From Deltaproteobacteria bacterium (GTDB lineage: Bacteria > Desulfobacterota > Dissulfuribacteria > Dissulfuribacterales > QOAL01): a stretch of DNA of 36,010 nucleotides. The position numbers and the translations under genes are program-made. The first letter of the stretch is position 1. Every line of letters starts with the position of its first letter. Location: positions 1-36,010 of the forward strand of contig JALWNK010000061.1 in NCBI GenBank assembly GCA_026995935.1. Reading direction: 5' to 3'. The notes under the pieces were generated by a model. It had not been told where the DNA came from, made no database searches, and worked only from the letters and a program-made list of their open reading frames with translations. Below are positions 15,403 to 21,239 of the stretch, piece by piece.

Positions 15403-16013
15403 AAGAGATTTCAAACTTCTATCCATATCTGCTCCCTGTCCTTTCATATGTACTTGGTTCAATCCCCTTTGGACTCTGCTTTGCCAAGATGAAGTCCGTT
15501 GATCCAAGAAAACATGGAAGCGGAAACATAGGGGCGACCAACATAGCAAGGGTCCTTGGAAAGGGCTGGGGAATAACCACCCTGCTTTTTGATGCGCTAA
15601 AGGGCTTTGTTCCGGTTTTTTTGGCAATGAAGCTGAACGAGCCCTCTTTTATCGTTGCACTTACCGGCCTTGGAGCCGTGGCAGGACACTGCTACTCCAT
15701 GTTCCTTGGTCTTAAAGGGGGAAAGGGCGTAGCTACAGCCCTTGGTGTATTTCTTGCCATATGCCCAAAGGCGGTGGCCGTTGCTGCAATCATTTTTGCA
15801 GCAGCCCTTTTTTATACAAAATACGTATCTGTGGGCTCTCTTGCCTCAGTGGCCTCGGTACCCCTTCTCATATTTTTTTTTAAGTCAGATTCCTTCATAG
15901 AGGCCATGGCCTGGACAGTGTGTTTCATCATATGGATAAGGCACAAGGACAACATAGCAAGGCTTATCAAGGGTGAGGAAAAATCCATCAGTTTTGGATC
16001 CCAAGGGCCTTGA
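15399..16013 (+). CDS. plsY: Acyl-phosphate:glycerol-3-phosphate acyltransferase
   Basis: PlsY is an inner-membrane enzyme that transfers an acyl group from acyl-phosphate to glycerol-3-phosphate, the first step of phospholipid synthesis. The 204-residue product has the three family motifs: 'GSIPFG', 'HGSGNIGATNIARVLG' with 'DALKGF', and 'GHCYSMFLGLKGGKGVATALG', on several hydrophobic helices. Its ATG overlaps the stop of the preceding HAD gene by 4 bases, so it is probably translationally coupled. Its last 26 bases overlap the end of the convergent ntrX gene. Confidence 0.96.
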   Translation: MKEISNFYPYLLPVLSYVLGSIPFGLCFAKMKSVDPRKHGSGNIGATNIARVLGKGWGITTLLFDALKGFVPVFLAMKLNEPSFIVALTGLGAVAGHCYSMFLGLKGGKGVATALGVFLAICPKAVAVAAIIFAAALFYTKYVSVGSLASVASVPLLIFFFKSDSFIEAMAWTVCFIIWIRHKDNIARLIKGEEKSISFGSQGP

Positions 16014-17358
16014 TCTTCCTGTAGAGGTGTCTTCTTTCAATACCTATGGACTCTGCTGTCCTCTTTATGTTTCCACCAAACTGGGATAGCTTTCTTTCAA
16101 GGTAGGTCTTTTCAAATATGGATCTTGCGGTCTTGAAGTCTGGGCAGGAAAAGCATTCCGCCTCCTCTCCAGCCGCCTCCCCGGTCATGGCAGCAGGTTC
16201 AGAGGAGAGGAACTGCTTTGGAAGGTCCTTTTTGCGTATGACATTGTCCTTTGAAAGGATGACAAGGCGCTCTATGAGGTTTCTGAGTTCCCTGATGTTT
16301 CCCGGCCAGTCGTAGTTGAAAAGGGCCTCGACTGCATCATCTTCCATGGTGATGGAGCCCTTTGAGAACTCCTTCAAGAATTCATTGACCAGCAGGGGAA
16401 TATCCTCCTTTCTCTCCCTTAACGGTGGAACCTCTATGGGTATCACGTTGAGCCTGAAGTAGAGATCCTCCCTGAAAGTTCCCTTTTTTATCTCCTCCTC
16501 CAGATTCTTGTTTGTGGCGGCAATTATTCTTACATCTACCGAAATGGTCTTAGACCCTCCCACCCTCTGGAATTTCTGCTCCTGGATTATCCTTAGGATC
16601 TTTGCCTGGGTCTTAAGTGCCATGTCACCTATTTCATCAAGGAAAAGGGTTCCACCGTTTGCCAGGTCAAACTTTCCCCTTTTCATGGAAACTGCCCCGG
16701 TAAAGGCCCCTTTTTCATGGCCAAAAAGCTCGCTTTCTATGAGCTCATCGGGAATTGCAGCGCAGTTGACCTCCACCATGGGCCTTTTGCTTCTCTTGCT
16801 GAGCCTGTGAATGGTTTGTGCAACAATCTCCTTTCCAGTTCCGTTTTCACCCTGAATGAGTATCCAGGCATCCGTTGGAGCCACTATGCGTATCTGCTCC
16901 TTAAGCTGAACTATCTTCTTGCTCTTTCCGGTGATTTCTGTGGTTTTTCCGCTCTTTTCCTTAAGGAGCCTGTTTTCCTCCTGAAGGTCACGGAATTTCA
17001 GGGCGTTTTCAATGGAAATGAGAAGGGGCTCAATGGAGAGGGGTTTTTCTATGAAATCATGGGCACCAAGCTTTGTGGCCTTAACGGCCGTCTCTATGGT
17101 TCCGTGTCCCGACATGATGATAACAGGCAGAAATGACCAGGATTCCTTTATCTTCTTAAGCACCTCGATACCGTCAATGTCCGGCATCCATATGTCAAGG
17201 AGCACAAGGTCAACAGGTTCTCCGGATTCGAGAATCTCAAGGCACCTTTCGCCCCCAGGCGCCGTCTTTACCGAGTAACCCTCGTCGGAGAGGATGTCTC
17301 CTACCGAATCAAGGATCGATTCCTCGTCGTCAACTATGAGGATGGTGTTTTTGGCCAT
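15988..17358 (-). CDS. ntrX: Sigma-54-dependent response regulator, NtrX-like
   Basis: This 456-residue regulator has a receiver domain (about 1-122; phospho-acceptor D55 in '[11 protein letters not shown]'), a sigma-54 AAA+ domain with Walker A 'GENGTGKE', the sigma-54-contacting 'GAFTGA', and Walker B '[11 protein letters not shown]', and a Fis-type helix-turn-helix ('[21 protein letters not shown]'). The pairing with an NtrY-type kinase directly upstream supports the NtrX call. It would activate sigma-54 promoters in response to NtrY; the stimulus and regulon are unknown (nitrogen, redox or envelope signals are known for relatives). The gene starts 25 bases after ntrY. Confidence 0.92.
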
Positions 17359-17383: not shown

Positions 17384-19639
17384 CTATTTGTCCGTACGGA
17401 ACCTTATATAGAATATCACCCCGCTTGGTTTATTCAACTCTATTTCAATTGAGCCGTCATGGGCGTCAATTATTGATTTTACAATGGCAAGGCCAAGACC
17501 TGTTCCACCCTTTTTTCTTGAAAAGTAGGGATCAAACACCTTTGGAAGGTCCCTTTTAGATATGCCCTTTCCGTTGTCTGTTATCTTTACCACGGCCTCT
17601 TCTCTTTCACTGTCCCAGAAACAGTCAATGTCTATCTCGCTGGCCTTTCCTGCAGAAATGGAATTATCGATTATATTCATAAGGACCCTCTTTATCTGTT
17701 CACGGTCCATGAGGAGCCTTGGAAAATCATCAGAGATGTGGGCAGAAATCTTTACAAGTGGTGCGTATATCTCCCTAATTTCCTCAATCAGAGGCCTTAT
17801 GTGGCCTTTTTTGAGTTCAGGTGCAGGCATCCTTGCAAATCTTGAAAATTCATCAACAAGCTTTTTTAGCTCATCAGTCTGGTTGATTATGGTGTCTGTG
17901 CATCTTTTAAAGGCCTCCAGGTCCTTGCTGCTAAAGCGGTTGCTGAATTTTCTTTTTAGCCTCTGGGCAGACAGCTGGATGGGGGTAAGGGGGTTTTTTA
18001 TCTCATGTGCTATTCTTCTTGCAACCTCCCGCCAAGCGGCAAGTCTTTGTATCTTTTCAAGCTCCGTAAGGTCATCGAAGACTATAAGTATTCCTAGGAG
18101 CCGGTTCTTGTTGTCCTTTAAGAGGGAGAAACTGATGATCAGGGACTTTGAGACCCCTCCAACGTTTATGCGAAAGGATTTCTTTATGCTGCCCCTGCCT
18201 GAAAGGCTGAGTTCCTGTGGAATCTTTTCAAGTTCTGAAAAGTCGTCGCCTTTTATGAGCTCTTTGTAGTCCTTTCCTATTAGTTGCGAAGGGTCCCTTT
18301 CAAGTATCTGGCAGGCAGACCTGTTTATTGTTGTTATCTTCCCCCTTGGATCAAGGCTGATGACGCCGGCGGTTACATTTTCAATGAGCATTTCAATGTA
18401 GGCCTTTCTGTGTTCCAGCTCTGAATAGCTCTTTAAAAGGCGCCTGGATGCCTCTTCTGCCTTTCGCCTTGCCTCCTTTAGATCCCTTGTCATGGTGTTA
18501 AAGGCCCTTACCAGCCCGCTAAGCTCGTCCCTTCCCTTTGTGTCAAGCCTGAAGTTTAGATCCCCCTGTGCTATCCTGTGTGTTGCATCTGCCAGCATGA
18601 GCACGGGCTCGGTAATACTCTTTGCAAGCTTTAGGGCAAACCATATGGAAACAAAGATTATGAGAAGTGTTATGAGAAAAAGCGTAGAAAGAAGGCTGGT
18701 CTTAAGAGGTGTCTGAAAGACCTTAAGCTGTTTGTATTCCTCAAAACCCTTTTTGACCTCATCGAGCTGGCTAACTATGTCCTGTCCAAGGACCCTTCCG
18801 ATCTCAATGTATCCAATTAGGTTTCCATCAGGGCCAGAAAGGGGCTGTACCACCCTGAGAAGTGTTCCAGAGGCGATATCAAGGGATGTGACCAAAGGCC
18901 CTTTCTTATCACTTAGACCCTTGAGCCTTTGCCGGTCTATTTCAGGAACCTCCTCGGTTATAGGAAGCCAGCTTTTACCCCATATCCTGTTGCCATAGGG
19001 ATCAAGCACACTTATGTAATTTATTGGCAGCTTTCTTATGCAGGAGATGGCCGGATCTCCCACAGCACTTATATCGAATATGTCACCTATGCATCCTTCT
19101 TCAATCAGTCCTGTTGGCCCCTTGTTGCATCTAAGTGCTATCTGCCTAGCTATCACCTCTTCAATACTGCTCAGTTGTTTTATCTGGTCCCTGTAGTAGC
19201 TCCTTCCAATGGATATGGCCTGCTCAAGGCTCCTTTCGATCTTTATATCAAACCAGTAGGCAAGACTTGTCTGAAGGAACTGGAAGGAGATGAAAAAGAG
19301 GAGGATGGTAGGAAGAAGCGATACAATAACAAAGGCAACCGTAAGCTTTGTTTTAAGCTTTGCACCAAGAATGTGGCTCTTTTCTTCAAAAAGCAGCTTT
19401 ACCAGGTTTCTTATTACAAGAAAGCTCAGAACCAGGATAAGCAGAAGATTTATATTTATGACCGCAAAGATGAGGACGTTACTGTACTTTGGAAGGGGCC
19501 GAATAAAGGCAACAAGCTTGTACTCTATTACAGAAAAGATAACCAGCAGAACGACTATTACAGCTGCCAGTAATCTTTCTCTGTTTTTTTTCTGTTCAAA
19601 AAGTGAACTCAAACTCATAGGTCTTTGATGAAAATCCAA
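17384..19639 (-). CDS. ntrY: Sensor histidine kinase, NtrY-like
   Basis: A 751-residue membrane kinase with three N-terminal helices (about 23-44, 54-78, 98-120), a periplasmic sensor region of about 190 residues, another helix near 315-340, a HAMP linker, a PAS domain (about 410-520), HisKA with 'AHEIKNPLTPIQ' (phospho-histidine near 545) and HATPase_c with 'ITDNGKGI' and 'GGTGLGLAIVKSI'. The order fits NtrY. It pairs with ntrX downstream. Its start overlaps the end of the DUF4390 gene by 44 bases; a second in-frame ATG 7 codons in would reduce that overlap. The DUF4390-ntrY-ntrX order recurs in Desulfobacterota to my knowledge. Confidence 0.93.
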   Translation of the reverse strand: MDFHQRPMSLSSLFEQKKNRERLLAAVIVVLLVIFSVIEYKLVAFIRPLPKYSNVLIFAVININLLLILVLSFLVIRNLVKLLFEEKSHILGAKLKTKLTVAFVIVSLLPTILLFFISFQFLQTSLAYWFDIKIERSLEQAISIGRSYYRDQIKQLSSIEEVIARQIALRCNKGPTGLIEEGCIGDIFDISAVGDPAISCIRKLPINYISVLDPYGNRIWGKSWLPITEEVPEIDRQRLKGLSDKKGPLVTSLDIASGTLLRVVQPLSGPDGNLIGYIEIGRVLGQDIVSQLDEVKKGFEEYKQLKVFQTPLKTSLLSTLFLITLLIIFVSIWFALKLAKSITEPVLMLADATHRIAQGDLNFRLDTKGRDELSGLVRAFNTMTRDLKEARRKAEEASRRLLKSYSELEHRKAYIEMLIENVTAGVISLDPRGKITTINRSACQILERDPSQLIGKDYKELIKGDDFSELEKIPQELSLSGRGSIKKSFRINVGGVSKSLIISFSLLKDNKNRLLGILIVFDDLTELEKIQRLAAWREVARRIAHEIKNPLTPIQLSAQRLKRKFSNRFSSKDLEAFKRCTDTIINQTDELKKLVDEFSRFARMPAPELKKGHIRPLIEEIREIYAPLVKISAHISDDFPRLLMDREQIKRVLMNIIDNSISAGKASEIDIDCFWDSEREEAVVKITDNGKGISKRDLPKVFDPYFSRKKGGTGLGLAIVKSIIDAHDGSIEIELNKPSGVIFYIRFRTDK

Positions 19640-20135
19640 AGGAAGAGAAGAGTTTTACCAGTCTGGAAAAGGGCATGGATGACTTAACCTTTTCCGCCTT
19701 TGCCCTTATCTCTATGGTGTATTTTTTGCCCTTCTCCAGACGGGCCATGGATACCAGCCTTATCCTTTCCACTGAAAAGAGAAACCTTTTGGCGCTTTTG
19801 AGGCTATCTACGGAGATGAGCCTGGTAGCAGGATAGTCAAAGTAGAGGAAATACTTGTTTTTCAGGTTGTCAAAACTAATGGTTCGTCTGATTTCTATTG
19901 ACTTTAGTTCATCATCCCACAAAAATCCCTTTTTCTTAAGGGTAATTTGAAAAATGTACCTTACTGGGACACCGCTTTTGATAAGCTCTTCCATCCTTAC
20001 AGGCATTCCATTAGAGAGCCTGAAGGATAGAAAAAGGCTGTCGTGGTTCAGGGTAAGAGAGACGCCGGATATTTCAGGTTCTGGCTGATTTGCGGCAAGG
20101 CCAATGAAGGGAAAAGAAAAAAAAATTGCAGGCAT
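19596..20135 (-). CDS. DUF4390 protein, N-terminus possibly frameshifted
   Basis: The product (179 residues) matches the DUF4390 family: exported beta-rich proteins often encoded before ntrY. Recognisable parts are 'LSFRLSNGMPVRMEELIKSG', 'GVPVRYIFQITL' and 'FLWDDELKS'. From the ATG at 20135 the signal peptide looks short and lacks a basic n-region, and no ribosome binding site is seen. A better signal peptide start (ATG at 20152, 'MACLLLCLQFFF') is in another frame, and the two frames meet across a run of nine A on the plus strand (20117-20125). One extra base in that run would join them. Either the gene is read through a slippage site, or the homopolymer is mis-called, or the ATG at 20135 is used. 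Function of the family is unknown. Confidence 0.82.
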   Translation of the reverse strand: MPAIFFSFPFIGLAANQPEPEISGVSLTLNHDSLFLSFRLSNGMPVRMEELIKSGVPVRYIFQITLKKKGFLWDDELKSIEIRRTISFDNLKNKYFLYFDYPATRLISVDSLKSAKRFLFSVERIRLVSMARLEKGKKYTIEIRAKAEKVKSSMPFSRLVKLFSSFGFSSKTYEFEFTF

Positions 20136-20228
20136 AACAGAAGACAGGCCATCTTCCCAAAAGGCTTTTTGTGCGGGTTAAGTCCACAGGTTTTTTTATG
20201 GCCCGTATTCGTCAAGATTTTGACCCAC

Positions 20229-21239
20229 CTATTTTTTTCTTTCAAGGACGTAGAGGGCAAGCACCTTCATGTTGCTCTTAATAAGGGAGTCTGGAAATAT
20301 ATCAAGGCTTTCACAGGCAAGATCCACAAGGCCCCTGGCCTTTTTTATGGTGTAATGGATGCCGCCTGTCTCCATGAGGAGCTCCCGGACCCAGTTGAAG
20401 TCAGACATGGAGGCATATCCCTGGCAAAGAAGGTTCATGAGCCTGTCCCTGTTCTTTCTCGAGGCCCTTTCCAAGGCAACCACTATTGGAAGGGTGAGCT
20501 TTCCCTCGGCCAGGTCCGTTCCTATGACCTTTCCAAACTCGCTTGAATCTGCAGTATAATCCAGGACGTCATCAACCATTTGAAATGCCTGGCCTATGCA
20601 TAGCCCATAGTTGCTGAGGGCCTCAATCTCATCCAGGCTTCCCTTGGCCATTATGGCACCTATGCGGCAGGATGTGGATATGAGAGCCGCGGTTTTTCTG
20701 TAAATAATGTCAAAATAGGTCTTTTCATCAAAGCTTGGAACCTTGGCATGCAGGAGCTGAATTATCTCACCCTCAGACATAAGGGCCACTGTCTTTGAGA
20801 TGGCCCTGGCTATTCTGATGTCCTCAAATCTCGTTGCCAGCTCTATGGCTCGGGCATAGAGAAAGTCACCCACAAGAACGGCAGCGCTGTTCCCCCAGAT
20901 TTTGTAGGCCGGGGTTTTTCCCCTTCTCATCTCGCCTGCATCCACTACGTCATCGTGAAGGAGGCTTGCTGCATGAAGGTATTCAGGCACTGCGGAAAGA
21001 TCGTATATGTCTTCGGAATTGTAGTCACAAAGTTTTGCCGCACAAACCGTGAGCAGGGGTCTCAGCCTCTTTCCACCGGCAAAGATGATGTGACTGCTTA
21101 CCTGGTTGACAAAAGATATGTGAGATGCAAAGTGTTTTTTTAAAGTGGTTTCTATTTTTACAAAATCTGGTTGAAAAAAGTCCATTACCTGGTCAAAGGA
21201 CCTTTTTGAACCAGATATTTTGTTGAGTTTCGCAGCCAA
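20229..21239 (-). CDS. ispB: Polyprenyl diphosphate synthase (IspB-like)
   Basis: A trans-prenyl transferase (336 residues) that lengthens farnesyl or geranylgeranyl diphosphate to the long chain used for quinones. It has the two aspartate-rich motifs: 'LLHDDVVD' (FARM) and 'MVDDVLDY' (SARM), plus 'GGKRLRPLL' and the 'RRGKTPAYKIWGN' segment. The chain length made cannot be read from sequence. The start used here is TTG at 21239 because a GGAG Shine-Dalgarno lies 7 bases upstream; an ATG at 21185 would shorten it by 18 residues. It heads the minus-strand block leading to DUF4390, ntrY and ntrX. Confidence 0.93.
   Translation of the reverse strand: MAAKLNKISGSKRSFDQVMDFFQPDFVKIETTLKKHFASHISFVNQVSSHIIFAGGKRLRPLLTVCAAKLCDYNSEDIYDLSAVPEYLHAASLLHDDVVDAGEMRRGKTPAYKIWGNSAAVLVGDFLYARAIELATRFEDIRIARAISKTVALMSEGEIIQLLHAKVPSFDEKTYFDIIYRKTAALISTSCRIGAIMAKGSLDEIEALSNYGLCIGQAFQMVDDVLDYTADSSEFGKVIGTDLAEGKLTLPIVVALERASRKNRDRLMNLLCQGYASMSDFNWVRELLMETGGIHYTIKKARGLVDLACESLDIFPDSLIKSNMKVLALYVLERKK

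Follow-up and report, generated by a model that had tools for sequence, protein, structure and literature searches.

How can a gene be expressed when its export signal and its DUF4390 domain lie in different reading frames? The question is raised by a gene on the minus strand of the window, the 36,010-nucleotide stretch analyzed here (GenBank assembly GCA_026995935.1, contig JALWNK010000061.1, positions 1 to 36,010), which comes from the genome of a Deltaproteobacteria bacterium (G000). A preliminary description had proposed that a homopolymer run separates the two parts and had offered three causes: a sequencing or assembly error, a phase-variable tract, or programmed slippage. We examined the locus and its relatives with these possibilities in mind, and slippage was the one that fit.

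Two frames meeting at a T9 tract

The split was confirmed: a signal peptide start and the DUF4390 body occupy different frames of the minus strand and meet at nine T's, 20125-20117. As the preliminary description held, the frame opened by ATG 20152 (MACLLLCLQFFF...) differs from the DUF4390 frame, with coordinates and frames borne out by the sequence and its open reading frames (ORFs), and the 9-base A run on the plus strand (20117-20125) is the junction at which one added base joins the two. A -1 shift within the tract has the same effect. Read from TTG 20215, the upstream frame encodes a basic segment, followed by a hydrophobic one and the T9, and its stop codon lies at 20050-20048. The body frame is open only after a TAA at 20180-20178, and its sole ATG ahead of the domain, at 20135, is as weak a start as had been claimed (Table 1).

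Table 1. Features of the DUF4390 locus in the window
Feature	Position	Strand	Remarks
Polyprenyl synthetase, upstream neighbor	20229..21239	minus	Profile match
Shine-Dalgarno (SD) AGGTGGG	20224..20230	minus	8 nt before TTG; overlaps polyprenyl synthetase stop; best duplex, -6.3 kcal/mol
TTG, probable true DUF4390 start	20213..20215	minus	Upstream frame; best SD
Upstream frame: signal peptide n-/h-region	20048..20215	minus	Without slip, stop after 55 aa
ATG of the preliminary description	20150..20152	minus	Upstream frame; abuts GGGAAG, zero spacing; duplex, -2.0
Only body-frame ATG before domain	20133..20135	minus	Poor SD, duplex -1.8; no charged n-region; not conserved
T9, putative slippage tract	20117..20125	minus	A9 on plus strand; holds U_UUU_UUU in upstream frame
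Predicted post-slip body frame: signal peptide c-region (GLA-A) and DUF4390	19596..20117	minus	Stop 19598-19596
DUF4390 domain PF14334	19611..20078	minus	E 1.1e-23; 83.9 bits versus cut-off of 27
NtrY-type histidine kinase	17384..19618	minus	HAMP, PAS, HisKA, HATPase; NtrY_N below its cut-off only
NtrX-type response regulator	15988..17358	minus	Receiver, sigma-54 activator, Fis-type HTH; profile matches

Start codons were ranked by the anti-SD duplex over all ATG, GTG, and TTG codons, whatever their frame, from which reading stays open as far as the tract. By this ranking TTG 20215 (-6.3 versus -2.0 for ATG 20152) is probably the start codon of the gene. ATG 20152, which had been taken as the start, is probably the wrong choice and instead an internal Met codon.

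Conservation of the split among relatives

PF14334 was detected in 9/9 genomes of the genus, 17/19 of the family, and 44/46 of the order, and for each of the 44 we inspected the sequence preceding the domain. One genome of the family (G014; family f1, genus g4) had no PF14334 match despite being 99% complete, unlike most of its family. The split occurs in 7 of the 9 genus members (G000, the window genome, and G001, G002, G004, G006, G007, and G008), always with an open upstream frame and an identical offset. The tract is T9 in five of them and T10 in two; in the T10 genomes the register is unaffected, as the additional T forms the final base of the preceding codon. G003 and G005 have a T8 and a continuous frame with an ATG. 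(In G005, the DUF4390 body at L042 [G005:C2:6085-6546] contains an in-frame TAA where its sister G003 has a Glu codon.)

The six split relatives, whose bodies are 68 to 86% identical to that of the window, were drawn from at least five MAG accession groups (JALSQG; JAMOUE and JAMOVK; JAADCZ; WGDC; JALWYS), and the split has been retained across seven species. The seven split genomes form one clade, with a support of 99 in an NtrY tree that omits G003 (too short) and contains several long deep branches and of 85 in a tree of the body. In 33 of the remaining 35 order genomes, the DUF4390 frame offers an ATG, GTG, or TTG at a plausible distance. The other two, G034 (L107) and G037 (L015), have a DUF4390 frame without a clear ATG, GTG, or TTG for a signal peptide and without a long T run (no T8); thus, a missing start alone is no proof of slippage. 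A T9 near the N terminus was found in only one of these 35 genomes (G016), in a continuous frame; the T runs of G019 to G022 were judged by eye from the DNA.

Over the seven split genomes the tract columns are invariant (9/9), compared with 3/30 columns upstream and 2/30 downstream, and the 9-nt flank blocks are 25 to 49% identical except for the last, which adjoins the domain (70%). It is important to note that the alignment was anchored on the T runs, which favors the tract, so that the independent fact is the presence of such a run at that place in each genome. T runs of at least nine are expected at ~2e-4 per 30-nt window on one strand; a T9 or T10 at one place and with the same offset in 7/9 genomes is thus beyond chance. 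Codon choice told us less. Phe was present in all seven genomes at 45 columns of three neighboring coding regions used as a control, and 11 of these 45 columns were TTT throughout, so that the use of TTT is by itself modest evidence (~0.24 cubed, or 0.015, if the columns are independent). For G000 and G004, a third-position excess upstream was absent (15, 13, and 15 of 30), and the codon-position test was uninformative.

The best anti-SD duplex belongs, in all seven split genomes, to an upstream-frame start at -83 to -95 nt from the tract (G002 and G006 have ties, all within that frame); G007 has no other start, whatever the frame, that stays open to the tract. The SD score is an imperfect guide, as in G003 and G005, whose genes are continuous, it gave the top rank to a TTG near the tract. 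Stops are absent from the upstream frame over the last 81 nt ahead of the tract in 7/7 genomes and number 1 to 4 in the body frame.

Joining the frames yields a protein of nearly constant length, 206 aa in the window and 206, 206, 206, 205, 204, 204, and 206 aa over the seven split genomes. Export signal features were scored by simple hydropathy, charge, and AxA heuristics rather than by SignalP; on that basis, all seven two-frame proteins have a hydrophobic core (12-residue mean, 2.25 to 3.24), an n-region with a net charge of +1 to +7, and an AxA-like site at residues 39 to 42, which is weakest in G007. The proteins that begin at in-frame starts have an n-region charge of 0 in 7/7.

The body is evolving under constraint. 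Its dN/dS was 0.05 to 0.10 in the 10 of 21 pairs for which it could be computed (11/21 undefined), which indicates purifying selection and no pseudogene; dS, where defined, was 1.1 to 3.3, with synonymous sites near or beyond saturation. An AlphaFold model of the domain (window 19599-20078) is confident (pLDDT, 87.4) and mostly beta. Fold comparison with solved structures returned only weak beta-sandwich matches, none at an E value of 0.001 or better, and we therefore drew no function from the model.

On both strands of G000 (2.59 Mb) there are 309 runs of at least 8 T but only 39 of at least 9, as deduced from overlapping pattern matches. A search for further slips in G000, limited to the 39 runs, singled out only one other split-frame case, a second T9 in a signal peptide (L079, G000:C58:33062-33070, minus strand). 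There, the upstream frame has an ATG with an SD and reads MKITRRYLGIAAPAALA-FFF, and the body (LLSAALSAPPDHRR...) is start-less and in the -1 frame. The product has no Pfam match, and a neighboring paralogue has a continuous frame. The protein has no match in 7/8 relatives, and the relative in G004 is 37% identical, with a continuous frame. Found in this species alone among nine, the L079 split hints that the lineage tolerates such sites. When the 39 tract loci of G000 were compared by inspection with 24 of G004 and 28 of G007 (part of the runs of the latter two), only DUF4390 was a conserved split-frame gene. An in-frame T9 also lies mid-gene, at the same place, in LGT (PF01790, prolipoprotein diacylglyceryl transferase) of three genus genomes (L080 [G000:C59:9003-9011], L115 in G004, and L157 and L165, both in G007; 95 to 98% identical over the compared parts). 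A scan of viral contigs found no relative.

Probable slippage and the alternatives to it

Taken together, these sequence observations make it very probable that the cell depends on a slip within the tract for production of its DUF4390 protein. We consider it probable that the gene is expressed via transcriptional slippage at a T9 or T10 within the hydrophobic core of the signal peptide. Translation would begin at TTG 20215, and RNA polymerase would slip on the T tract and add one U in part of the transcripts. Only in these U-added transcripts would a single frame run from the basic n-region through the hydrophobic core and cleavage site to the periplasmic DUF4390 domain; unslipped transcripts would give a 55-aa peptide that ends at the stop. 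The T run encodes Phe in every frame and so can serve as the hydrophobic core whichever frame is read. The occurrence of a slip, its yield, and the polymerase rather than the ribosome as its agent are what we infer from this arrangement. Polymerase behavior in Escherichia coli is compatible with such a step, as the part of PMC6260861 available to us reports slippage from 7 T's, a preference for poly(T), and 5% and 10% rescue at T7 and T8.

The step could instead be taken by the ribosome, through a programmed -1 frameshift on U_UUU_UUU in which the transcript is faithful and the ribosome steps back one base. The sequence motif is compatible with both machines, since ribosomes, too, can slip on U_UUU_UUU, which is present in the upstream frame in 7/7 genomes and would give a shift in the required -1 direction; according to the excerpted text of PMC4066793, U_UU.U_UU.U and U_UU.U_UU.C give measurable shifts in E. 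coli. The same excerpt puts unstimulated heptamers in E. coli at no more than ~10-fold over a background of 0.037%, and we found no stimulator at the locus: folds of 60, 75, and 110 nt downstream scored z values of -0.8 to +1.2 against shuffles in 20/21 cases (the other, -2.2), the 25 nt before the tract contain no SD-like stimulator, and an Rfam scan of 19400-20500 gave no match. The lack of a stimulatory RNA structure or internal SD favors transcriptional slippage, as does the retention of at least nine T's, where a ribosomal heptamer needs fewer and would neither require 9 to 10 T's nor exclude C at the last position. We therefore regard ribosomal frameshifting as unlikely.

The remaining alternatives do without a slip at expression. 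The body might be made from a near-tract in-frame start, as a short-signal or cytoplasmic protein, and body-frame starts before the domain do exist as ATG in G000 and G002 and as GTG or TTG in G001, G004, and G008. In G006 and G007, however, the body frame contains no ATG, GTG, or TTG until 72 to 75 nt into the domain, where the first one, an ATG, lies; the other candidates lack a charged n-region and score below the upstream-frame start for SD. Nor do relatives start at an equivalent of ATG 20135; of the six other split genomes, G002 alone carries an ATG in frame ahead of the domain, and it lies elsewhere. This reading has, in our view, little chance of being right. Homopolymer tracts are the usual sites of phase variation, and both T9 and T10 occur here, so that changes in tract length might toggle the protein on and off in a population at the DNA level. 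Such toggling should give differing registers, yet all seven consensus genomes, T10 genomes included, share the out-of-frame register, which makes this earlier suggestion highly improbable. Homopolymers in draft assemblies are generally error-prone, and the tract might accordingly be a sequencing or assembly error or the mark of a decaying pseudogene. The same arrangement and offset in seven genomes, the relatives alone representing at least five accession groups, together with the body dN/dS of 0.05 to 0.10, leave error or decay very unlikely indeed, with almost no weight in our assessment.

A PlrP-type protein behind a probable slippage tract

The ATG of the NtrY-type kinase (19618) overlaps the end of the DUF4390 gene by 23 nt, and an NtrY-like ORF also lies downstream of the DUF4390 gene in the loci of the relatives that we compared. 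PlrP, the DUF4390 protein of Bordetella, is described, in the portion of PMC13001219 available, as the periplasmic third component of an NtrYX-type system, essential in vitro, that keeps the phosphatase activity of PlrS, the NtrY homologue, in check; plrP homologues colocalize with ntrYX. The window gene shares with plrP the DUF4390 domain and the position beside ntrYX-type genes, has a putative signal peptide like that of PlrP, and, judged by its sequence, is a member of the PlrP family. By analogy, its product is likely a periplasmic partner of the sensor kinase and, once exported, would act on the neighboring NtrY-type kinase as PlrP does on PlrS. The distribution given in that portion covers proteobacterial classes, whereas the MAGs here are labeled Deltaproteobacteria or Thermodesulfobacteriota; the word "frameshift" is absent from the text of the PlrP paper. 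The available portion of PMC3711429 shows DUF111 and DUF772 among its DUF clusters and does not contain the term "signal peptide."

Poly(A)/poly(T) frameshifts in Blochmannia and Buchnera were reportedly described by Wernegreen in 2010. As far as the excerpt of PMC3017870 goes, such cases resemble ours in that a homopolymer frameshift interrupts an otherwise intact gene, is kept between species, and makes a slip necessary, but they belong to obligate endosymbionts, whereas here the tract lies inside a signal peptide in environmental MAGs of 2.1 to 2.6 Mb. Baranov et al. 2005 treat "pseudo pseudogenes" and IS elements in which a 9 A/T run likewise joins two frames, and the excerpted text (PMC1088944) takes a conserved run together with a conserved ORF arrangement as the criterion for functional use; a homopolymer of at least nine A/T at the frame junction, as in conserved slippage sites, is present in 7/7 split genomes. 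In that text, the conserved runs consist of A and occur in six IS groups and mapW, in contrast to a T9 or T10 in a chromosomal gene beside ntrYX-type genes. Transcriptional slippage inside a cellular gene also gives the long product of Shigella mxiE and spa13 and Citrobacter tssM1, where, from the parts of PMC5009743 and PMC4256274 available, a protein that is sizeable even without slippage gains a C-terminal extension; here, only 35 to 55 aa would be made without the slip, on which the whole DUF4390 domain depends. In titles and abstract openings, with subscription journals thinly covered, we recognized no similar case of bacterial slippage or frameshifting within a signal peptide. Conserved homopolymer slippage is already known, and what is unusual is its location inside a signal peptide.

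A standard gene finder would truncate or mis-start the DUF4390 gene in all seven species. The slip may be a tolerated accident or may set the dose for the kinase partner. The boldest version, in which a slip-limited supply sets the PlrP:NtrY ratio, we consider distinctly doubtful: the slip would be a regulatory valve whose U-added share sets the exported PlrP-like protein relative to NtrY and, via the 23-nt overlap, ntrY translation as well. UTP supply, temperature, or the speed of elongation could influence that share, and, if the valve were real, it would constitute a polymerase slippage input into an NtrYX-type system. More generally, the conserved split indicates that an environmental lineage can maintain a single-copy chromosomal gene whose frame is broken at a homopolymer past the saturation of its synonymous sites.
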